From Spongiactinospora rosea (lineage in GTDB: Bacteria > Actinomycetota > Actinomycetes > Streptosporangiales > Streptosporangiaceae), in contig NZ_QMEY01000014.1 of the NCBI RefSeq assembly GCF_003315795.1, positions 1 through 64,000 of the forward strand: a DNA stretch of 64,000 nucleotides. The letters are read 5' to 3'. A program made the translations under genes and the position numbers. Each line of letters begins with the position of its first letter. The stretch's first letter is position 1. Positions 2,120-29,885 of the stretch are shown here, piece by piece. The notes under the pieces were generated by a model. The model searched no databases, had not been told where the DNA came from, and worked only from the letters and a program-made list of their open reading frames with translations.

Positions 2120-2731
2120 ATGAAACAGCAGGAGAGGTCGAGCCGGTCCCGTAAGGCCATCCTGGAGGCCGCCGCCGAGGAGTTCGCCGCCCGCGGCTAT
2201 GCCGCGACCAACCTGTACGACATCGTGGCGCACACCTCCCTCTCCAAGGGCGCGCTGTACGCCCACTTCCCGTCCAAGTCGCATCTGGCCACCGCGCTGA
2301 CGGAGAAGTTCCAGCGCACCTGGGACGAACTGCTGCGCCAGGCCGCCGACCCGTCCCGCCCGCCGCTGGCCGCGCTGCGCGACCTGACGCTGGGGCTGAT
2401 CGAGATACTCGGGTCCGACGCGTGCTTCACCGCGGGACTGCGCCTCACCTGGGACGAGGCGCACGCGCAGGGGCGGCCCCCGACCGTTCAGTCCAATCTG
2501 CTGGACACCCTGACGGGTCTGATCCGCGACGCGCAGCGTGGCGGCGGCATCGACGCCGGCCAGGACCCGGAGCTACTGGGCATTCTGCTGCTCGGGCTGC
2601 TGATCGGCGTCCATCACACCACCGCGCGGCAGAACGGCCACATGGCCGCCGAACGCGTGCGGCGGCTGTGGGACATGCTCGCGCCGATCATGCTTCCCGC
2701 AGCGCGGCCGAGTCGACCAGAACCCCGTTGA
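2120..2731 (+). CDS. TetR-family regulator, gamma-butyrolactone-receptor-like
   Basis: 203 residues. The N-terminal HTH (about residues 9-55: RKAILEAAAEEFAARGY, then SLSKGALYAHFPSK) is classic TetR. The KGALYAHFPSK recognition helix and the later F-T-A-G-L-R-L-T segment resemble the ArpA/ScbR autoregulator receptors. No butyrolactone synthase lies nearby, so a signal-receptor role is only a suggestion. ATG 2120 follows a GAAAGGG site and starts just before the HTH. Its last 44 bp overlap the convergent ArsR gene. Likely target: the divergent AKR gene and itself. Confidence 0.82.
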   Translation: MKQQERSSRSRKAILEAAAEEFAARGYAATNLYDIVAHTSLSKGALYAHFPSKSHLATALTEKFQRTWDELLRQAADPSRPPLAALRDLTLGLIEILGSDACFTAGLRLTWDEAHAQGRPPTVQSNLLDTLTGLIRDAQRGGGIDAGQDPELLGILLLGLLIGVHHTTARQNGHMAAERVRRLWDMLAPIMLPAARPSRPEPR

Positions 2732-3138: not shown

Positions 3139-4602
3139 ATGTCCACACCACTCGCCCCATCGGCCCGGCGGCCCGCCGACGGCCGGCTCGGCTGGAGCCT
3201 GGCGCTGTTCGCGCTGGCCCAGTTGATCTTCTCCCTGGACATCTTCATCGTCTACGTCGCCCTCCCTGACATCGGGGCCGACCTGGGCTTTTCCGACCAG
3301 ACCCTGCAGTGGGTGGTCAGTGCCTACGTCGTCTTCGCCGGAGGGTTCCTGCTCCTCGGCGGGCGCGCCGCCGACCTGCTCGGCAGGCGGCGGATCTTCG
3401 TGCTCGCCCTCACCATTTACGCATTGTCGTCGCTGGCCGGCGGGCTGGCCACCAGCCCGGCGGTGATCATCGCGGCGCGGGCGATCCAGGGCATCGGCGG
3501 CGCGCTGCTGCTGCCCTCGACCCTCTCGCTGATCGGCACGCTCTTCGAGGAGGGCCCGAAGCGCAACCGCGCCTTAGCCGTGTGGGGCGGCGCGGGCGCG
3601 AGCGGGCTCACCGTGGGCTCCCTGCTCGGCGGCGTGCTGACCCAGAGTTTCGGCTGGCCCGCGGTGTTCTTCGTGAACGTCCCGCTGGCCGGGATCTGCG
3701 CCATCGCGGCGCTCGCCGTCGTACCGCGCGACCAGCGCGCGACCGAGCGGCGGCGCTTCGACCTGCCCGGCGCGCTGACCGTCACGGCGGGCGCCACGCT
3801 GCTGGTCTTCGTACTGGTGCAGGGCCCCGAGGTCGGCTGGACCCAGCCGGCCATCCTCGCCGCCGGGGCGGCGGCCGTCGTCCTGCTGGCGCTGTTCGCC
3901 ATCATCGAGTCGCGCAGCCGGGACCCGCTCATGCCGTTCCGGTTGTTCCGTAATCGCAGCCTGGTCGTCGGCGTCAGTGTCACCGGTCTGTACATGGGGA
4001 CGTTCGGCGCTCTGCCGTACTTCATGACCATGCTGCTCCAGAACGTGTTCCAGTTCAGCGCGCTGGAGACCGGCCTGGCCTTCCTCGTGCCCTCGGTGGC
4101 CATCGCGACCGGGACCCAGCTCGGCGAACGGCTGGTCGGCCGGATCGGCACCCGGGCGACGCTGCTCGGCGGCTTCGTGGTGGGGGTGGCGGGCACGATC
4201 GCCTTCGCCCTCGCGTTCGACGACCAGGCGGGCTTCGCGGCCACCGTGCCCGGCATCGTCGTACTGAGCCTCGGCCAGGGCGTGGTGTGGACGGGCATGT
4301 GGATCGCCGCCGCCACCGGCGTGGCGGGCGAGGAGCAGGGCGTGGCCAACGGCCTGGCCTCCACCTCGCTCAACCTGGGCAACGCGATCGGCCTCGCCGT
4401 GCTGATCGCGGTCGCCAACGCGGCCGTGACCGGCCAGACGGGGGCCGCGCTGCGGGCCGCGGTCGCCGACGGCGGTTCGCTCGCCGTACTGCTGACGGCG
4501 GCGGGCATGCTCATCGGCGCGCTGGTCAGCCTGACCCTGCCCAGGAAGACCGCGGTGGCCGCCGCCGCGAACCCGGCACCCGCGTCCGCGGTCCACTCGT
4601 GA
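3139..4602 (+). CDS. MFS transporter, DHA2 (14-helix) drug-export type
   Basis: 487 residues with about 14 hydrophobic segments. Motif A is seen as GGRAADLLGRRRIFV after helix 2, and motif C-like G-x-x-x-G-P-type glycine pattern follows helix 5 (SGLTVGSLLGGVL). Family members export drugs or antibiotics by proton antiport across the inner membrane. A GAAGGAA site precedes ATG 3139. It has one TTA leucine codon (146, at 3574-3576). It could be a self-resistance exporter for the locus downstream, but 600 bp and a hairpin separate them. Confidence 0.9.
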   Translation: MSTPLAPSARRPADGRLGWSLALFALAQLIFSLDIFIVYVALPDIGADLGFSDQTLQWVVSAYVVFAGGFLLLGGRAADLLGRRRIFVLALTIYALSSLAGGLATSPAVIIAARAIQGIGGALLLPSTLSLIGTLFEEGPKRNRALAVWGGAGASGLTVGSLLGGVLTQSFGWPAVFFVNVPLAGICAIAALAVVPRDQRATERRRFDLPGALTVTAGATLLVFVLVQGPEVGWTQPAILAAGAAAVVLLALFAIIESRSRDPLMPFRLFRNRSLVVGVSVTGLYMGTFGALPYFMTMLLQNVFQFSALETGLAFLVPSVAIATGTQLGERLVGRIGTRATLLGGFVVGVAGTIAFALAFDDQAGFAATVPGIVVLSLGQGVVWTGMWIAAATGVAGEEQGVANGLASTSLNLGNAIGLAVLIAVANAAVTGQTGAALRAAVADGGSLAVLLTAAGMLIGALVSLTLPRKTAVAAAANPAPASAVHS

Positions 4603-4606
4603 CACC

Positions 4607-4636
4607 CGCCGGACCCCCGGTCCGGGGTGTCCGGCG
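4607..4636 (+). terminator. Hairpin after the MFS gene
   Basis: CGCCGGAC at 4607-4614 pairs with GTCCGGCG at 4629-4636, and GC-rich inner arms extend the stem. It starts 5 bp after the stop codon. There is no clear T-run, as is common for actinobacterial terminators. Confidence 0.5.
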
Positions 4637-5204
4637 AACGTCGTCCGATCGCCGCGCCGCGCTCCCGGTCACGAGCGCGGCGCGGTCGGACGTACCGAAG
4701 CCCGCCCGCGCACCGGCGGGCGCATGAGCACAACACCCTCCAGGGTGCGGCAGGCACAGGCGTGACCGTGGCCGGCCACGCACCCTCTGAACCGGCACAC
4801 CCCGACAGATCCCGGTGATACCGGCAGTTCTCCCGGGCCGCGGATCAACGGTGATCCGGCGAGCCAGAGCCAGAGTCTGGGTCTGGCTCTGGACCCGGAA
4901 ACGCATCGGCGCAGCGCATCCCCGCATTCGGTGGACGGCCTCTTTGACTGCGCTATGCACACATTTCGCCGCCTCCTCGACAAGACGCGGCAGAACTGCG
5001 TTCGGTTGTCGAATCACGTTCGGATATCGGGCTTTGTGCCGCATTCGTATCGTTCCAGCACGCGCCCGCAGGCCGCGTTCCCCCTGCTGAGGGGCCGAAG
5101 TCCAAAAGTCGTCATGACAAATGCTGACATATGGTCCAAAGAAACATTCGCGTAGGTAGTTTTGTGATGTTGACGCGCGACTTAACCGAAACGGATGTCC
5201 GTAA
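4637..5204. other. Long intergenic region with an 11-bp perfect hairpin
   Basis: No gene is convincing in this stretch. CCAGAGCCAGA (4864-4874) and TCTGGCTCTGG (4882-4892) are perfect inverted repeats around a 7-nt loop. Base composition drops from about 4930 to 5200, consistent with the promoter region of the transposase-like gene at 5205. Confidence 0.5.
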
Positions 5205-6437
5205 ATGCCGAACGGGGAGAGTAAGAAACCGTGGGGGCTGGGCGTCGACCTTGCGCCCATAAGGCGAATTTCTGTCTCTGACTTCATCGAGGAGGTCTTC
5301 GGCTACCTTCCGCGCAGCGACCAGCGCCGATGGGCCCGCACGTACCTGAGAGGGCTGCTCAACGTGCCGGGCAAGAAATCGTTGCAGCACATGGCCCGGG
5401 CCGCCGCCACCGGCCTGAACGCCTCCCATGGCCTGCAGCAGTTCATCAACTCCAGCCCGTGGGACTGGACCCCGGCGAGGGAGGCGCTGGGCAGGTCGAT
5501 CGGCGCGACCATGCCGGTGACCGCGTGGGCCGCCGGGATCCTGAGCATCCCCAAGCGGGGCGAGCACTCCGTGGGCGTGCACCGCCGTTTCGTCCCGCAC
5601 GCGGGCCGAACGCTGAACTGCCAGGTGGCGGTGGGCATGTTCCTGTCCTCCGAGGAGCAGGCCATGCCGGTCGACTGGCACCTGTTCCTGGACCCGGCCT
5701 GGAGCGGCGACGAGCAGCGCAGGCGGCGGGCCCGCATCCCCGGGCACGTCTCCGCCCTGCCGCTGTGCATGCACGTACTGGAACTCGCCGACCACATGCG
5801 GGCCCGGCGGCCCGGGCCGACGCCGCCGCTGGTGGCGGACCTGCGTGTCGGGATGGACATCAGCAGGCTGGCCGACGAACTCAGCGCGCGCGGGATCGAC
5901 TTCGTCATCGAAGTACGCGCCGCGCACCCGGTGCTGGCCGCCGCAGGCCCGCTCCGGGCGACGGGACGGGCGGCGGGACGGGCGACAGCCGTGCGGCCCA
6001 CCACGGTGAGCGAGGTGTGGCGGCAGGAGCCACCGCAGGCGGCGGAGGGCCCGCGGGGGCCGGCCATCGCCGCCAGAGCGGTGCGGCTGCCCGGCGCGCC
6101 GCAGACGTACCGGCTGCTCACGCAGTGGTGGCGGGGCGACCACCGGACCCGCCGATACTGGATCACCAGCATCCTGGACCAGGCCGCGGAAGCCGTACTC
6201 GCCCTCGACCGGCACGCCGCACGTGCCGAGGCGGTGATGAAGGACCTGGAGACGGACTTCGGCGTCCTCGACTTCGCGGGCCGCTCCTTCCCGGGCTGGC
6301 ACCACCACATGACCATGGTCTCGGCCGCGTACGTCTACCGGAACCTGCTCTCCGGCGACGACGGCGCGCTCGCCCGCGCATCCGGCGAACGGGGTCATGC
6401 CGAATTGCTCACGATGTCACGGATGAGCGGCGTGTAG
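5205..6437 (+). CDS. IS701-like transposase-fold protein, probably catalytically inactive
   Basis: 410 residues. The conserved IS701/DDE_5 landmarks are present: an N-terminal helical region with R-x-Y-L-R-G-L-L, then IPKRGEHSVGV (115-125), N-C-Q-V-A-V, the insertion-like D-W-H-L-F-L-D-P-A-W, A-D-L-R-V-G (211-216) and a C-terminal G-W-H-H-H-M-T helix. In active members the PKKG box follows a D-D-T-G-F sequence with the first catalytic Asp; here it reads G-I-L-S-I (111-115), so that Asp is missing. Asp212 remains. No terminal inverted repeats flank it. A hairpin and StrR-type gene follow at once, so a domesticated DNA-binding or regulatory role is my inference. Confidence 0.75.
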   Translation: MPNGESKKPWGLGVDLAPIRRISVSDFIEEVFGYLPRSDQRRWARTYLRGLLNVPGKKSLQHMARAAATGLNASHGLQQFINSSPWDWTPAREALGRSIGATMPVTAWAAGILSIPKRGEHSVGVHRRFVPHAGRTLNCQVAVGMFLSSEEQAMPVDWHLFLDPAWSGDEQRRRRARIPGHVSALPLCMHVLELADHMRARRPGPTPPLVADLRVGMDISRLADELSARGIDFVIEVRAAHPVLAAAGPLRATGRAAGRATAVRPTTVSEVWRQEPPQAAEGPRGPAIAARAVRLPGAPQTYRLLTQWWRGDHRTRRYWITSILDQAAEAVLALDRHAARAEAVMKDLETDFGVLDFAGRSFPGWHHHMTMVSAAYVYRNLLSGDDGALARASGERGHAELLTMSRMSGV

Positions 6438-6442
6438 CCGCC

Positions 6443-6466
6443 GGACGGCCGTCACCCCGGCCGTCC
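6443..6466 (+). terminator. Perfect 8-bp hairpin after the transposase-like gene
   Basis: GGACGGCC (6443-6450) and GGCCGTCC (6459-6466) enclose an 8-nt loop, 5 bp after the stop at 6437. It may end the transcript or attenuate read-through into the StrR-type gene. Confidence 0.55.
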
Positions 6467-6529
6467 TCCGAGTCATCTGGGTCGTCATCCAGTTTCAGGC
6501 ACGCGGGCCACAGCAGAGGGGAAGCAGTG

Positions 6530-7636
6530 ATGCCTGTCAGAGCCCTTGCGGAAACCACTGGAACATCGACGGGGGATGGTGATGAACTGGCATGTGGAGG
6601 CACACCACGGTTGACGGGGGTCGTCATGGTGCCGGTGGGCGTGCTGCGTTCGGCCGACTCGCCCCGCCTGGGCGAGATGGACGTGCAGCACATCCGCAGG
6701 CTGATGGCGGCCGACCCGCTGCCGCCGATCATCGTGCACCGGTCCACGATGCGGGTGATCGACGGCATGCACCGGCTGCGGGCCGCCGTCCTGACGGGGC
6801 GCACCGAGGTCAACGTCCGCTTCTTCGAGGGCAGCGACGAGGACGCCTTCGTGGTCGCGGTACGCACCAACGTCAGGCACGGCCTGCACCTGTCGGCCAA
6901 GGAGCGGTCGGTGGCCGCCAAGCGCATCCTGATCAGCCATCCCGACTGGTCCGACCGCGCGGTGGCGGCGGCTGCCGGGCTGTCCATGAAGACCGTCGCC
7001 GAAATCAGGAAACGTGCATCTGAAGAAATTCCGCACTCGCACACCCGGCTGGGCCTGGACGGGCGGGTCCGGCCGGTCGACGCGGCGGCCGGACGCAGGC
7101 GGGCCGCCGAATACATCCAAAGGCACCCGCAGGCGTCGCTGCGCATGATAGCCTCCGCGGCCGGCGTCTCCACCGGCACCGCGCGCGACGTGCGCAACCG
7201 GCTGGCCCGCCATGAGGACCCGGTGCCGTCCGGGCAGCGCGGCGGCCATGTGAAGGTCGCCTCCCGGGCCGGCGGCGACGGCCCGGCGCGCGCGCCGGTC
7301 ACGGCGGGCGGCCGGGGTGAGTCCGATGGCAGAAGGCGCGCCGACCCCGAGCACCGCGTCTGCAGGGACGCGCTCGCGCTGCTGTGCCGGGACCCCTCGC
7401 TGCGCTTCACCAAGACGGGCCGGATGCTGCTGCGCATGCTGGACAACCGGTTGCTGGCCTCGATGCATCGCGATCAGATAATCGCCAGCATTCCGCCGCA
7501 CTCCAAGGACACGATTCTGGCGGCGGCCCGCCAGTGCATTCGCGTCTGGCAGGAATTCGCGGACGAGGTGACCAAGGACGGCGGGGCCGAGGGCGCGTAC
7601 GACCCGGTGGCCAATGTGCCGGAGATCTCATACTGA
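6530..7636 (+). CDS. StrR-like pathway-specific activator (ParB/Srx-type N-terminal domain)
   Basis: 368 residues. The ParB-like domain (about 27-130) carries VPVGVLRSADSPRLG, then PPIIVHRSTMRVIDGMHRLRAA, then FFEGSDEDAFVVAVRTN, the signature of StrR/NovG/Bbr-type activators of antibiotic clusters. Two HTH-like segments follow (WSDRAVAAAAGLSMKTVAEI and LRMIASAAGVSTGTARDV), and the C-terminus has the family's PPHSKD..ARQCIRVWQEFA segment. ATG 6530 has an AGAGGGG site, and longer in-frame extensions run across the preceding gene. Family members bind inverted repeats and activate biosynthetic operons; the redox genes downstream are the natural targets. Confidence 0.88.
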   Translation: MPVRALAETTGTSTGDGDELACGGTPRLTGVVMVPVGVLRSADSPRLGEMDVQHIRRLMAADPLPPIIVHRSTMRVIDGMHRLRAAVLTGRTEVNVRFFEGSDEDAFVVAVRTNVRHGLHLSAKERSVAAKRILISHPDWSDRAVAAAAGLSMKTVAEIRKRASEEIPHSHTRLGLDGRVRPVDAAAGRRRAAEYIQRHPQASLRMIASAAGVSTGTARDVRNRLARHEDPVPSGQRGGHVKVASRAGGDGPARAPVTAGGRGESDGRRRADPEHRVCRDALALLCRDPSLRFTKTGRMLLRMLDNRLLASMHRDQIIASIPPHSKDTILAAARQCIRVWQEFADEVTKDGGAEGAYDPVANVPEISY

Positions 7637-7811: not shown

Positions 7812-9029
7812 ATGAAAGAGGGGCAGATGAAAGAACCGTCTCACCACCCCGCCCTGATCGATGAGGTCCCGCTCTCCGGGGAAGCCGATCAATGGCTGCA
7901 GAAGGTCGCCGAAATCGCGCCGGTGATCGAAGAGCACCGGGACGAGTCGGAACGCCGGCGCCATTCCGTGCAGCCGGTGTTCGACGCGCTGCGCGACGCC
8001 GGAATCCACCGGATGCTGGTGTCCCGCGATTTCGGCGGCTCGCAGGTCACCCTGGACACCGGCTCTCGCGTACTTCAGGCCCTGGCCGCCATCGACCCCT
8101 CGGTGGCCTGGCAGATGGGCGTGCAGGGCGCGATCGGCAGGCTGTCGGACTACCTGCCGGAGGCCACCGCGCACAAGCTCTTCGCGGAGAGTTCCGGCCT
8201 GGTGGTCGGCTCGGTCAACCCCACGGGCCGCGCCGAGGCGGTGCCCGGCGGATACAGGCTCAGCGGCACCTGGGCCTTCGCCAGCGGTTCCGCGCACGCC
8301 GACTGGCTGGTGTGCGCGGCCGTGGTCACCGACGGCGGCAAGCCGCGGATGACCGCGGCCGGGCCGGAGATCCGCCACGCGTTCGTGCCCAAGTCCGAGG
8401 TGCGCATGCAGGACACCTGGCACTCCCTGGGCCTGCGCGGCACCGGCAGCCACCACTACGAGATCGGCGAGACCTTCGTGGCCGAGGACCACACGGTCGA
8501 GGGCGCGGCGATGTACCTGCCGCCGCCCGAGCGCCCCGCGCGCGGCTACGCGATCAGCTACTACGACTTCGGCCTGTTCGGCTCGGCCTCCACCGTGCTC
8601 GGCACGGCCGCGGGCGCGCTCACCGCCTTCAAGGACCTGTCCCGCTCCAAGGTCGCCGCCGCCTCCACCAAGACGCTGGACGCCGGGCACGTCGTCCAGG
8701 AGCGGGTGGCGCGGGCCGAGATCCTGGTCCGCTCGGCCCGGCTGATGCTGGCCGACGCCGCCTGGCACGCCACCGAGCACGGCCAGAAGGGCGGCGACCC
8801 GCTGAGCGCGCTGGTCCGGCTCAGCGCCGCGACCGTCGCGGAGAACACCACGGCGGCGGTGGACATCCTGTTCAAACTCGCAGGAACCAGCTCGGTCTAC
8901 GCGGGCAACCTGCTCGAACGCCACTTCCGTGACATCCATTCGGCGGCCAAGCACATCACGCTGTCCCACACCAACATCGAGATGGTGGGCCAGTACCTGC
9001 TCGGCGGCGAGCTGCGGATGCGCCGATAG
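7812..9029 (+). CDS. Acyl-CoA-dehydrogenase-fold flavin-dependent monooxygenase
   Basis: 405 residues, the length of the two-component hydroxylases with acyl-CoA dehydrogenase fold (HsaA, DszC, ActVA-ORF5, KijD3 types). The N-terminal helical domain has GIHRMLVSRDFGGSQV; the middle domain carries L-S-G-T-W-A-F-A-S-G-S, typical of this group; the C-terminal domain ends in a helical bundle with R-H-F-R-D-I-H-S-A-A-K-H. The catalytic Glu of true acyl-CoA dehydrogenases is not evident. Such enzymes use reduced FMN/FAD and O2 to hydroxylate carbon or nitrogen, and the flavin reductase at 10287 is the likely partner. A strong GAGGAGG site precedes ATG 7812. Confidence 0.85.
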   Translation: MKEGQMKEPSHHPALIDEVPLSGEADQWLQKVAEIAPVIEEHRDESERRRHSVQPVFDALRDAGIHRMLVSRDFGGSQVTLDTGSRVLQALAAIDPSVAWQMGVQGAIGRLSDYLPEATAHKLFAESSGLVVGSVNPTGRAEAVPGGYRLSGTWAFASGSAHADWLVCAAVVTDGGKPRMTAAGPEIRHAFVPKSEVRMQDTWHSLGLRGTGSHHYEIGETFVAEDHTVEGAAMYLPPPERPARGYAISYYDFGLFGSASTVLGTAAGALTAFKDLSRSKVAAASTKTLDAGHVVQERVARAEILVRSARLMLADAAWHATEHGQKGGDPLSALVRLSAATVAENTTAAVDILFKLAGTSSVYAGNLLERHFRDIHSAAKHITLSHTNIEMVGQYLLGGELRMRR

Positions 9030-9093: not shown

Positions 9094-10167
9094 GTGCACA
9101 CCATGAAGGCAGTTCAGCTCATCGCTCCGCGCAAGACCATCCTGGCCGAGCTTCCCCGGCCGGACGTGCCGGCCGACGGCCTTCTGATGCAAACGCTGTG
9201 CGTCTCGATCTGCTCGACCGACATCTCTTTCTATGAGGGTCATCTTTTCCCCTCCGAATATCCGATCATCCTGGGCCACGAGTACCTCGGCAAGGTCGTG
9301 GAGATAGGTCCCGAGTTCGACAACCCCGATATCCGGTTAGGTGACCGGGTCGTGTACTGGGGCCAGACCGACTTCGGGGGCTTCGCCGAGTACCGGACGG
9401 TGCGGCCGATCTTCTCCGGCGAGGTCAAGAAGGACGTCTTCTGGGCCGACCGCAACTTCTTCGACGACAACCGCGCGGCCGCGGTCAAGGTGCCGGACGC
9501 CCTGGACGACCTTCAGGCGTCCTTCATCGAGCCCACCACGGGCGCGCTGCGCTCGATCCTCGGCAACCCGCCCCAGATCGGCGACAAGGTGCTGGTCCTG
9601 GGCACCGGCCCGATCGGCATCATCGCCGGCAGCGTCATCAAGCGGCTGCTCGCCCCCACCTCGGTCGTCTCCGTGGACGCCAACCCGCGCCGCAACGAGC
9701 ACGCCGTCGAGCACTTCTCCGACCGCGCCTACCTGCCGGACGAGCTGATCGAGGAGGTGCCGGAGAACACCTTCGACTACGTCTTCGACTGCCTGCCCAC
9801 CGTCCACGTCGAGGACGAGGAGAAGGACCCGCGCCGGGTCGCCATGCGCAAGATGAAGCCCAAGGGCAGATACGTCCTCTACGGCGCGTCGCAGGAGATG
9901 CAGCGGTTCGACACCTGGCTGATGCTGGCCAAGGGCATCAACATCAGCGCCTCGCCGTTCGACGTCAGCGCGTTCCCCATGCACAAGACGGCCAACGTCA
10001 TCCAGTCGGCCGTGCAGATGCTCGTGTCGGGCATCGTGGACGGCAGGCGCCTGCTGTCCACCGTGCACAGCTTCGATGACTACGACGGTCTCGTGGACAT
10101 CTTCGGCAACTACCGATCGACGACCGGCCTGAAGACGATCGTGGACTTCCGGAAGCAGCCCGCCTGA
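9094..10167 (+). CDS. Zinc-dependent medium-chain alcohol dehydrogenase
   Basis: 357 residues. Catalytic-zinc ligands are visible: Cys in V-S-I-C-S-T-D, GHE in ILGHEYLG, and the E-P-T-T-G-A segment. The Rossmann motif is V-L-G-T-G-P-I-G. The four-Cys structural-zinc loop is replaced by a Trp/Phe-rich segment (FWADRNFF), as in some sugar or cyclitol dehydrogenases. GTG 9094 follows AGGAA by 6 nt and is preferred to ATG 9103. It has a TTA codon (82). The substrate is unknown; it may oxidise a sugar or cyclitol alcohol in the pathway controlled by the StrR-type gene. Confidence 0.88.
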   Translation: MHTMKAVQLIAPRKTILAELPRPDVPADGLLMQTLCVSICSTDISFYEGHLFPSEYPIILGHEYLGKVVEIGPEFDNPDIRLGDRVVYWGQTDFGGFAEYRTVRPIFSGEVKKDVFWADRNFFDDNRAAAVKVPDALDDLQASFIEPTTGALRSILGNPPQIGDKVLVLGTGPIGIIAGSVIKRLLAPTSVVSVDANPRRNEHAVEHFSDRAYLPDELIEEVPENTFDYVFDCLPTVHVEDEEKDPRRVAMRKMKPKGRYVLYGASQEMQRFDTWLMLAKGINISASPFDVSAFPMHKTANVIQSAVQMLVSGIVDGRRLLSTVHSFDDYDGLVDIFGNYRSTTGLKTIVDFRKQPA

Positions 10168-10286: not shown

Positions 10287-10796
10287 ATGACCATAGACGT
10301 TGAGGAGTTCACCAGCGCGATGTCCCGGGTGCCCGGGCCCGTGACGGTGGCCACCACCATCGACCGGTCGGGACGCCGCTGGGGCTTCACCGCGAGTTCC
10401 TTCATCTCGCTCTCCTTACAGCCCCCGCTGGTACTGATCTGCCTGGACAAACAGGCGAGCACGCACGCCGCGTTCGCCTCCGCCCGGCACTTCATGATCA
10501 ATATCCTGGCCAAGGAGCAGTCCGGGGTGGCGGTGCGTTTCGCCACCTCCGGCATCGACAGGTTCGCGGCCGGCGACACCGAGCCCGCCGAACTCGGCCT
10601 GCCCGGCATCTCCGAGGCCGCCGCGCGGGTGGCGTGTTCCATGCACCAGTTGCTCGACGGCGGCGATCACACCATCCTCGTCGGCCGGGTCGAGGAGGCG
10701 CACGTGGGCGACCAGGCCCCCCTGGTCTACTGCGACCGCGTCTTCGGCCGGCACGCCGAGCTGAACGCGCCGGAAGCGATGGCCGAGGTCCGGTGA
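10287..10796 (+). CDS. Flavin reductase (HpaC/ActVB-like split-barrel)
   Basis: 169 residues with the flavin-reductase-like fold: VPGPVTVATT start, then G-F-T-A-S-S-F-I-S-L-S-L-Q-P-P-L-V, the FMN/FAD-binding signature, then N-I-L-A and a conserved C-terminal D-H-T-I-L-V-G-R-V-E. It supplies reduced flavin to two-component monooxygenases; the gene at 7812 is the obvious client. Codon 44 is TTA (10416-10418). Its stop overlaps the GTG of the next gene (GTGA), so the two are translationally coupled. Confidence 0.9.
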   Translation: MTIDVEEFTSAMSRVPGPVTVATTIDRSGRRWGFTASSFISLSLQPPLVLICLDKQASTHAAFASARHFMINILAKEQSGVAVRFATSGIDRFAAGDTEPAELGLPGISEAAARVACSMHQLLDGGDHTILVGRVEEAHVGDQAPLVYCDRVFGRHAELNAPEAMAEVR

Positions 10797-11743
10797 CCTC
10801 GCGCCCACAATCGTGGACCAGCCTGCCCAGGACCCGCGTCGCGGTCCTGGGCACGGCCCATGTCCACCTCCCCGACCACCTCGCCGCCGTGGCCGCCGAC
10901 GACGACGCCGAACCGGTCGCGGTACTGGAGCACGCGGACGCCGTGATCATCTGTTCCACCACGGCCGGGCACCGCGACCTGCTCCGCCGGGCCGTCGCGG
11001 CGGGGCTGCCCGCGCTGGTGGAGAAGCCGCTGGCCGCCGGTGCCGCCGAGACGGCCGCGCTGGCGGCCCTGGCCTGCCGCGCGCGGGCCCCGGTCACCAC
11101 CGCGATGTTCCTGCGCTGCGCGCCGTCGCTGCGCCGGGCCGCGCGGCTGCTGGCGGACGGCGACCTCGGCGAACCGGTCGCGGCGGACCTGTCCTTCTCC
11201 CACGCCGGTCTCCTGGACGGCACGCTGACCGCCGATTCCGCCGCCTGGATGCTCGATCCGCGCCGGGCCGGGCCCGGGGGTGCGTTCGCCGACCTGGGCG
11301 TTCACCTGGTGGACCTGCTGCGCTGGCTGCGTCCGGGGGCGGAGATCGCGGTGCGGGGCGCGGTACTGCGCCACCGTCCCGAGTACGCCGTGAACATCGG
11401 CGGGACGGCCCTGCTGGACTGGGACGGCGTGCCCGTCACCGTCCACGCCGACTGGACCACCCGCCCCGGCGGCCTGCTGGTCCGCCTGCACGGCACGCGC
11501 GGAACGGTGATCGTGCGCGACGGCGAAGTGGCCGCCCACGTCGGCGGGACCCGGCGGGTGGAGCGCCTGCCCCCGCCGTCGGCCGGGCACGCCACCACGG
11601 CCTTCCTGGCCGCGTTGCGCGGCCGGGAGTCCTGGCGGGCGCCCGATCCGGCCGACATGGTGGCCTGCGCGGTGACCCTGGAGGAGGCGCTGGAACTGGG
11701 CGGGGGGATCAGCGCGGATACGCCCCGCCGTCCAGGCCGATGA
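10793..11743 (+). CDS. Gfo/Idh/MocA-family oxidoreductase with shortened Rossmann domain
   Basis: 316 residues starting at GTG 10793, inside the flavin reductase stop. It has the dinucleotide-fold start (V-A-V-L-G-T-A-H-V-H), I-I-C-S-T-T-A-G-H, and the family E-K-P-L loop (V-E-K-P-L-A-A-G). The C-terminal domain has DLGVHLVDLLRW. About 25 residues normally present between the second strand (E-P-V-A-V) and A-D-A-V-I-I-C-S are missing in frame, including the acidic residue that usually contacts the NAD ribose. It may be inactive or use its cofactor differently. Relatives oxidise or epimerise sugars and cyclitols. Its end overlaps the convergent SDR by 35 bp. Confidence 0.82.
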   Translation: MTSRPQSWTSLPRTRVAVLGTAHVHLPDHLAAVAADDDAEPVAVLEHADAVIICSTTAGHRDLLRRAVAAGLPALVEKPLAAGAAETAALAALACRARAPVTTAMFLRCAPSLRRAARLLADGDLGEPVAADLSFSHAGLLDGTLTADSAAWMLDPRRAGPGGAFADLGVHLVDLLRWLRPGAEIAVRGAVLRHRPEYAVNIGGTALLDWDGVPVTVHADWTTRPGGLLVRLHGTRGTVIVRDGEVAAHVGGTRRVERLPPPSAGHATTAFLAALRGRESWRAPDPADMVACAVTLEEALELGGGISADTPRRPGR

Positions 11744-28040: not shown

Positions 28041-28189
28041 GAACCTTTTCAACCTCACGTTCCCCGGTCAGAGGCGGCAAGTGGGATTCCGTATCCGTAT
28101 GACGAGGCGTCCTGCCGGGCTACCGTGCCCGGGCCGAGTCCGGTGGAGGCGCCCCTGACCTGGTCCAGGCGACCGGTTGAAAAAGGTTC
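28041..28189. promoter_or_regulatory. Widely spaced inverted repeats upstream of the TetR gene
   Basis: GAACCTTTTCAACC (28041-28054) and GGTTGAAAAAGGTTC (28175-28189) are inverted copies that differ by one A/T. They flank the likely TetR promoter; one lies 20 bp after the SDR stop. They suggest two repressor sites or a looped complex. Confidence 0.55.
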
Positions 28190-28209
28190 AGTCTAGGCAG
28201 GCGGGCGCG

Positions 28210-29109
28210 TCAGTCCCGTCCGCCCCTGACACGCAGCAGTTCGCCGAAGCCCATACGGGTGATGAACCGCTCCTGCGCGCGCCGCGCCAGCTCGTTGACC
28301 TCCTCGACACCGGCCTCGGTGAAATCGACGACCGTCCGGAACGGGCGGGCGCCTCTCGGCAGGGCGAGGATCCGGGTGATCTCCTCGGCCACGGCCCTCG
28401 GATGCGCGTCCACGCCGGGCGTGAAGAGGGCCGCGGTGGCCTCCTCGTTGCGGGCCACCATCGGGTCCAGGTGGGCGTAGGCGCGGCTGCGCTCCTGGTC
28501 GGTCGCGCGGCTCGCGTTGCGGAAGTGGTCCGTCCCCTGGGTGAAGGGGCCGGGCATCACGATGGTGGTCTCGATGCCGAACTGGCCCACCTCGTACGCG
28601 GTGACCTGCGCCAGGGCGTCCGCGGCGAACTTGGAGGCCACGTACGGGCCCAGGAAGGGCGGTACGACCACCGATGTGGTGCTGCCCACGTAGAGCAGCG
28701 TCCCCGACCGGCGTTCCCGCATGTGCGGGAGCACCGCCCGGTTGACCCGCTGAATGCCGATGGCATTGATGTCGAACAGGTGCTGGACGTCCTCGGGAGT
28801 GAATGCCTCGACATAACCGACGTTCAGGTGACCGGCGTTGTGCACGACCGTGTCGAGGCGTCCCGCCTCGCCGATGACGGTGCGGACGGCGGCTTCGGCC
28901 GACGGGTCGGACGTGACGTCGAGTTCGACGACCCGCAGGTCGAGACCTTCGCGAAGGGCGTGTCCCAGCAGGTCCTCCGCGTGGCCGGCGTTGCGGCCCG
29001 CGACGTCGCGCATGCTCGCGTAGACGGTGTGCCCGGCCGCGGCCAGGGAGCGGGCCGCGAGGTTGCCGATTCCGGTCGCGGCACCGGTGATCAGGATCAC
29101 GTTGGACAT
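28210..29109 (-). CDS. Short-chain dehydrogenase/reductase
   Basis: 299 residues of classical SDR: TGAATGIG, N-A-G-H, S-T-T with Y-V-A-S-K. The C-terminal substrate part is long (P-F-T-Q-G-T-D-H-F, then R-P-F-R-T-V-V-D), as in actinomycete SDRs of unknown substrate. It is followed by the TetR gene and preceded by another SDR gene 35 bp away on the same strand. Confidence 0.9.
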   Translation of the reverse strand: MSNVILITGAATGIGNLAARSLAAAGHTVYASMRDVAGRNAGHAEDLLGHALREGLDLRVVELDVTSDPSAEAAVRTVIGEAGRLDTVVHNAGHLNVGYVEAFTPEDVQHLFDINAIGIQRVNRAVLPHMRERRSGTLLYVGSTTSVVVPPFLGPYVASKFAADALAQVTAYEVGQFGIETTIVMPGPFTQGTDHFRNASRATDQERSRAYAHLDPMVARNEEATAALFTPGVDAHPRAVAEEITRILALPRGARPFRTVVDFTEAGVEEVNELARRAQERFITRMGFGELLRVRGGRD

Positions 29110-29144
29110 CAGGGCTTTCCTTTCCGTACTCGACGGGGAGGGGA

Positions 29145-29885
29145 TCAGGCGAGGCCGCCGTTGGGGTAGATCACCTGGCCGTTGATCCAGCGGGCCGGGC
29201 CGGCCAGGAAGGAGACGGTCTCGGCGATGTCGGCGGGCTCGCCGAGGCGTTCCAGTGGGGCGGCGTTGGCGAGGGCGTCGACCGTGGCCTCGTTCTTGCC
29301 GTTGAAGAACAGCGGGGTGGCGGTGGGGCCGGGGCCCACGGCGTTGACGGTGATGTCACGGCCGCGCAGTTCGCGGGCGAGGATCAGGGTCAGGCCCTCG
29401 ACGGCGGCCTTGCTGGCGACGTAGGCCGCGTAGTTCGGCATCTGGGTGCGGACGACGGACGTCGAGAAGTTGATGATGGCTCCGCCCGCGCGGACCCGGC
29501 GGGCGGCCTGCTGGGAGACGACGAAGGCGCCGCGGATGTTGGTGCGGTGCATCCGGTCCAGGTCGGCGAGGTCGAAGGTCGCGATGGGGGCGAGGATCAT
29601 GATCCCCGCGGTGTTCACCACGACGTCGATGCCGCCGAACGCCGACTCCACGGCGTCGAACGCCGCGGCCATGGCGTCCTCGTCGGCGATGTCGCCCGCG
29701 ACCGCGATGGCCGCGCCGCCGGCCTCGGTGATCTCGGCGACGGTCTCCTCGGCCGCCGCCCGGTTACCGGCGTAGTGCACGGCCACGGCCATGCCGTCCG
29801 CGGCGAGCCGCAGGGCCGCGGCCCGGCCGATGCCGCCCGACCCTCCGGTGACCAGTGCGACGCGACGGGTGCCGACTGCGTTCAT
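29145..29885 (-). CDS. Short-chain dehydrogenase/reductase (FabG-like)
   Basis: 246 residues: TGGSGGIG, N-T-A-G-I, S-T-S with Y-A-A-Y-V-A-S-K, and G-P-G-P-T-A-T-P. ATG 29885 follows GGAGGAAC. Two copies of a TetR-type operator lie directly upstream (29905-29952), so it is probably inducible. It may form an operon with the next SDR gene. Confidence 0.9.
   Translation of the reverse strand: MNAVGTRRVALVTGGSGGIGRAAALRLAADGMAVAVHYAGNRAAAEETVAEITEAGGAAIAVAGDIADEDAMAAAFDAVESAFGGIDVVVNTAGIMILAPIATFDLADLDRMHRTNIRGAFVVSQQAARRVRAGGAIINFSTSVVRTQMPNYAAYVASKAAVEGLTLILARELRGRDITVNAVGPGPTATPLFFNGKNEATVDALANAAPLERLGEPADIAETVSFLAGPARWINGQVIYPNGGLA

Follow-up and report, generated by a model that had tools for sequence, protein, structure and literature searches.

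The gene at 5205..6437 on the forward strand of the window, which is the whole 64,000-nucleotide stretch of the Spongiactinospora rosea genome that was analysed, encodes a catalytically dead IS701-type protein of the Tn5 fold (410 aa, ATG start, intact frame). It belongs to a clade of IS701 that was immobilised in ancient times, is catalytically incomplete and is under selection. This family, hereafter the dead clade, probably represents an anciently domesticated branch of IS701 whose members would act as DNA-binding regulators or coregulators. Domestication, already proposed in the initial annotation, is well supported by the apparent monophyly of the clade, the lack of a complete catalytic triad in all of its members, purifying selection, conserved syntenic positions and the loss of mobility features, terminal repeats among them.

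Homology to IS701 transposases spans the whole length of the protein, which scores 283.7 bits against the NCBIfam model transpos_IS701 (NF033540, cut-off 150) and 145.1 bits against Pfam DDE_5. The residues found at the three positions of the D-D-E triad are G111, D212 and E342, so that the triad is incomplete. The Gly111 codon (5535..5537, +) occupies the position of the first catalytic Asp of intact IS701 proteins, a column that holds Asp in 22/22 aligned relatives outside the dead clade. The original reading of this stretch, in which D-D-T-G-F is replaced by G-I-L-S-I, was therefore in the correct register, and the alignment with IS701 transposases that had been suggested as a check places no intact triad. 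Asp212 (codon 5838..5840, +), reported from the outset as retained, aligns in the second catalytic Asp column. Glu342 (codon 6228..6230, +), at the third catalytic position, had gone unremarked; it aligns without gaps with the catalytic Glu, while the remainder of the YREK signature is lost, together with the W339, I341, Y345 and K349 that surround the Glu in the intact motif. A misalignment concealing an intact triad was ruled out by the gap-free match around residues 111-125 and by that running backwards from the C-terminal motif. The latter, DFxGRSxxGWHHHxT (residues 356-370; 6270..6314, +), is near invariant across the dead clade. At the other end, a helical domain covering residues 24-102 (5274..5510, +), with conserved R37/R41/Y47/L51/K58/W86, is presumed by analogy with Tn5 to be the DNA-binding part.

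Relatives were gathered from species genomes, from the bacterial family of the window and from its class, the family and class searches being samples of genomes. More than 100 relatives across actinobacteria have lost the DNA-cutting site and kept the fold. A complete triad is found in none of 134 distinct dead-clade proteins, against 18/18 intact relatives: 82 of the 134 retain D212 alone, 26 have it together with E342 (the class of the protein from the window), 10 have D111 and D212, and 16 have none of the three residues. The loss is common to the clade and does not reflect an accident in a single gene, although the ten members with D111 and D212 indicate that the triad was not lost uniformly residue by residue. 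Columns conserved in active proteins and lost in the dead clade cluster together (D111, D112, F115, Y216, G217, W339, I341, E342, Y345, R346 and K349), whereas the N-terminal R37, R41, Y47, K58 and W86 and the C-terminal G359, R360, W365, H368 and T370 are kept. In a maximum-likelihood tree, 107 dead-clade proteins are split from 19 intact relatives by a branch with an SH-aLRT of 100, which supports monophyly of the dead clade; the tree comes from a quick search, contains long branches and has its root placed between the two groups by assumption.

The gene also lacks the marks of a mobile element. Intact multicopy relatives outside the dead clade are elements of 1.42-1.44 kb whose ends are CTAGTAG-type inverted repeats. 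Searching 4600-6700 for repeats gave no terminal pair on either side of the gene, and no match to the CTAGTAG-type end of the nearest multicopy relatives lies nearby, in agreement with the early remark that no terminal repeats were visible. The gene is present in one copy in its own genome, with no near-identical copies that would point to recent mobility. Compared with its orthologue in Spongiactinospora gelatinilytica, it shows a dN/dS of 0.178, alongside 0.20 for strR, 0.07 for the MFS gene, 0.25 for the flavin monooxygenase and 0.06 for the alcohol dehydrogenase among the window neighbours; in 14 other dead-clade pairs the ratio ranges from 0.11 to 0.41, and the clade is under purifying selection. 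The orthologue of S. gelatinilytica ends at a stop codon near residue 400, and the protein can therefore probably do without its final few residues.

From the perspective of their genomic context, dead-clade genes are fixed in conserved neighbourhoods, syntenic across many species. Neighbour genes were called by a simple codon-position GC method (crude calls with approximate gene starts) and then clustered, and Pfam was used to identify representatives of the groups. In group A, to which the window belongs, the order is dead gene, StrR-type regulator, flavin monooxygenase and alcohol dehydrogenase. Within the window, all on the forward strand, these are the StrR-type regulator at 6530..7636 (368 aa, ParB-like N-terminus and HTH), a flavin monooxygenase of the acyl-CoA-dehydrogenase fold, HsaA/HpaH-like (7812..9029; conserved neighbour F34), and a zinc-type alcohol dehydrogenase (9097..10167; conserved neighbour F39), followed by a flavin reductase (10287..10796) and a Gfo/Idh-type oxidoreductase (10793..11743). 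The last four are shared with the S. achromogenes locus L016, which has no StrR gene. Upstream, likewise on the forward strand, lie an EmrB/LmrA-like MFS exporter (3139..4602) and, about 2.5 kb from the dead gene, a TetR protein of the ScbR autoregulator-receptor family (2120..2731; 135.2 bits, just under the cut-off of 150, the next family scoring 39.9). Group B, in about 25 species, comprises SARP, MFS, dead gene, OmpR-type regulator and Amdase-like genes and genes that we take, from their sequence, to be LysW-type. Group C, in about 20 species, comprises LuxR, nucleotidyltransferase, NmrA-like, dead and maltokinase-like genes and more. A same-strand gene follows the dead gene in 77/97 loci, at a median distance of 29 bp (gene starts being approximate). 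At least one recurrent regulator cluster lies within three genes of the dead gene in 79/98 loci, a raw count, uncorrected for the background frequency of the regulators concerned (OmpR-type, SARP, LuxR and TetR).

A quantitative association was observed with gamma-butyrolactone signalling genes. In 16 Streptomycetaceae genomes, picked for holding a dead-clade match and not for AfsA, dead-clade genes are enriched beside AfsA genes: 14/25 have one within 7 kb, against 0.13 expected from gene density, while 14/40 AfsA genes have a dead-clade gene within the same distance. Other IS701 places in these genomes lie within 7 kb of AfsA in 0/24 cases (Fisher p ~1e-5). Plasmid records in RefSeq show gene orders such as SARP, TetR, 'transposase', ScbR and ScbA. 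No AfsA match was obtained in the genome of the window itself.

The pairing with StrR is a more limited feature. The next gene had been called a pathway-type regulator, which agrees with its weak ParB-like N-terminal match and with its plasmid homologues, annotated as 'ParB N-terminal domain' or 'streptomycin biosynthesis protein'. The suggestion that the dead protein is a partner of StrR is weakly supported: the pair is real in 4/98 loci (the window, S. gelatinilytica of the same genus, S. olivaceoviridis and Streptomyces sp. RKAG290), but most dead-clade members adjoin other regulators. In a search of actinomycete genomes for the pair, also proposed at the start, it recurs in those four loci, whereas in the 342 genomes of the window's bacterial family, searched with a 210-aa fragment of the StrR-like protein as query, no adjacent pair outside the genus is found among the matches listed. 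A StrR-like gene is present in 139 of these 342 genomes. StrR as a universal or obligate partner is ruled out by the four paired loci out of 98 and by the frequency of StrR-like genes without a dead gene.

In the proposed mechanism, the protein would no longer cut DNA yet would bind a specific site, perhaps as a dimer, and this site may be descended from, or replace, the terminal-repeat site. Binding would then help to control how the adjacent regulator and pathway genes are transcribed. In the window, the target or partner of the protein may be the StrR-type activator, and the ScbR-type receptor possibly stands above it in the control chain. A broader proposal, plausible but somewhat short of probable, is that widespread dead DDE transposases are sequence-specific transcription (co)regulators in the gamma-butyrolactone and other pathway circuits of actinomycetes, and would form an unrecognised class of antibiotic-cluster regulators labelled 'IS701 family transposase'.

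Nearness to regulators is no proof of regulation, since regions of specialised metabolism are rich in them. Group C, moreover, sits among genes of a sugar-metabolism type, which counts against a regulatory reading and, together with the diversity of neighbourhoods, the existence of tandem copies and the hypothetical nature of the DNA site, lends some weight to a different and rather unlikely role. According to it, the RNase H-like fold would have been repurposed in an accessory protein of pathway or signalling loci, such as a scaffold or a nucleic-acid or protein binder, rather than in a DNA-binding regulator; judging from group C and the tandem copies, the family may have several roles. The recurrence of regulators as neighbours and the retention of the N-terminal basic and aromatic positions common to intact IS701 argue for a DNA-binding (co)regulator instead.

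The predicted fold brings in a further explanation. An AlphaFold2 model built from 47 sequences (pLDDT 87, pTM 0.86) has as its top match among solved structures the Tn5 transposase (Z 24.8, rmsd 4.2 over 328 residues, 14% identity), and as its second the Tn5 inhibitor 1b7e (Z 16.6), whereas a profile search among the sequences of solved structures found nothing. Dead transposases can poison active multimers, and the match to 1b7e would fit a genome-guarding protein that, like the Tn5 inhibitor, suppresses active IS701 elements in a dominant-negative way. This is improbable: the genes are fixed beside regulators and not beside elements, they have diverged from intact IS701 for a long time, and in the 16 Streptomycetaceae genomes most IS701 sequences that do not belong to the dead clade are fragments, so that little is left there to inhibit.

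Two further explanations carry very little probability. That the gene is a functionless IS701 copy, degraded or recently inserted and left behind at a gene-cluster border, would accord with its NCBIfam label and with the many broken IS701 copies in its genome, but is contradicted by a dN/dS well below 1 and by shared synteny, as well as by the full-length frame, the monophyly of the clade and the orthologue that occupies the corresponding position in a second species; recent insertion is ruled out by the absence of flanking repeats and of CTAGTAG ends near the gene. A still-active transposase or nuclease with a shifted or substitute acidic residue, for which the joint presence of D212 and E342 could speak, is similarly hard to sustain, given that strand 107-116 (AWAAGILSIP) contains no acidic residue in sequence or model, that the protein lacks the W, I, Y and K of the intact motif and that the gene shows no multicopy elements or repeats.

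The dead protein may be compared with its closest known systems. It resembles the IS701 family (NF033540, Pfam DDE_5) in its whole-length homology and its N- and C-terminal landmarks, but lacks the triad, the YREK motif and the terminal repeats, and is a single-copy gene in a conserved neighbourhood. With the Tn5 transposase and inhibitor (1mus, 1muh and 1b7e) it shares a similar predicted fold at 13-14% identity. The inhibitor provides an example from nature of a transposase product that does not transpose; it arises by truncation from a live element, whereas the protein described here belongs to a separate full-length gene family. TldR proteins descended from TnpB with loss of its nuclease activity; unlike the dead clade, they are RNA-guided and are not DDE transposases. 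They are named as transcription factors related to the transposon protein TnpB (PMC13418256), and resemble the proposed role in that a transposon-type protein is re-used as a transcription factor, regulation by the dead clade being a prediction. StrR, ScbR/AfsA and SARP, encoded beside dead-clade members, are regulators of a conventional kind or signal synthases, and have no relationship to transposases. OvmZ/OvmW (PMC11264864), which looked similar in habit, were rejected as the same family: OvmW is described as an HTH protein of 60-80 aa and OvmZ as lacking conserved domains, and the word 'transposase' is absent from the paper. No description of the dead clade was found in the open-access papers searched.

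The equivalog model NF033540 scores dead-clade proteins well above its cut-off, and the IS701 label therefore cannot tell live from dead transposases. Most intact matches to the IS701 model in the sampled Streptomycetaceae genomes belong to the dead clade, and a gene conserved in regulatory loci can thus be dismissed during annotation as a mobile element. Should its members prove to be regulators, silent biosynthetic gene clusters could be approached in a new way, and bacteria would supply a clear example of a DDE transposase that became a host protein.

Additional observations concern the distribution and surroundings of these genes. The closest other relative in the genome of the window is a second dead-clade paralogue on contig C17 (near 28091-29263; locus L002 of genome G000), with 38% identity over part of its length; it shares neighbours, including a ParA-like ATPase, with the sister species G002 (L090). 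A tandem pair of dead-clade genes, possibly forming unlike pairs, occurs at G226:C1:1962334-1964836, and also at L044. Group B loci, for example L025, L029 and L057, carry a conserved set with a LysW-like carrier protein of 61 aa, an Amdase-like enzyme and a SARP, possibly a pathway for an amino-acid-derived natural product. The intergenic region between the MFS and dead genes (4698-5072) is unalignable with that of S. gelatinilytica (about 496 bp there), while the flanks are about 92% identical. Relatives of the protein are found in 109 Streptomyces plasmid records, under the name 'transposase' among the matches listed. On the S. globisporus plasmid SGLP1, the relative adjoins primase genes of the plasmid, where, apart from a small HTH gene, no pathway regulator is evident.
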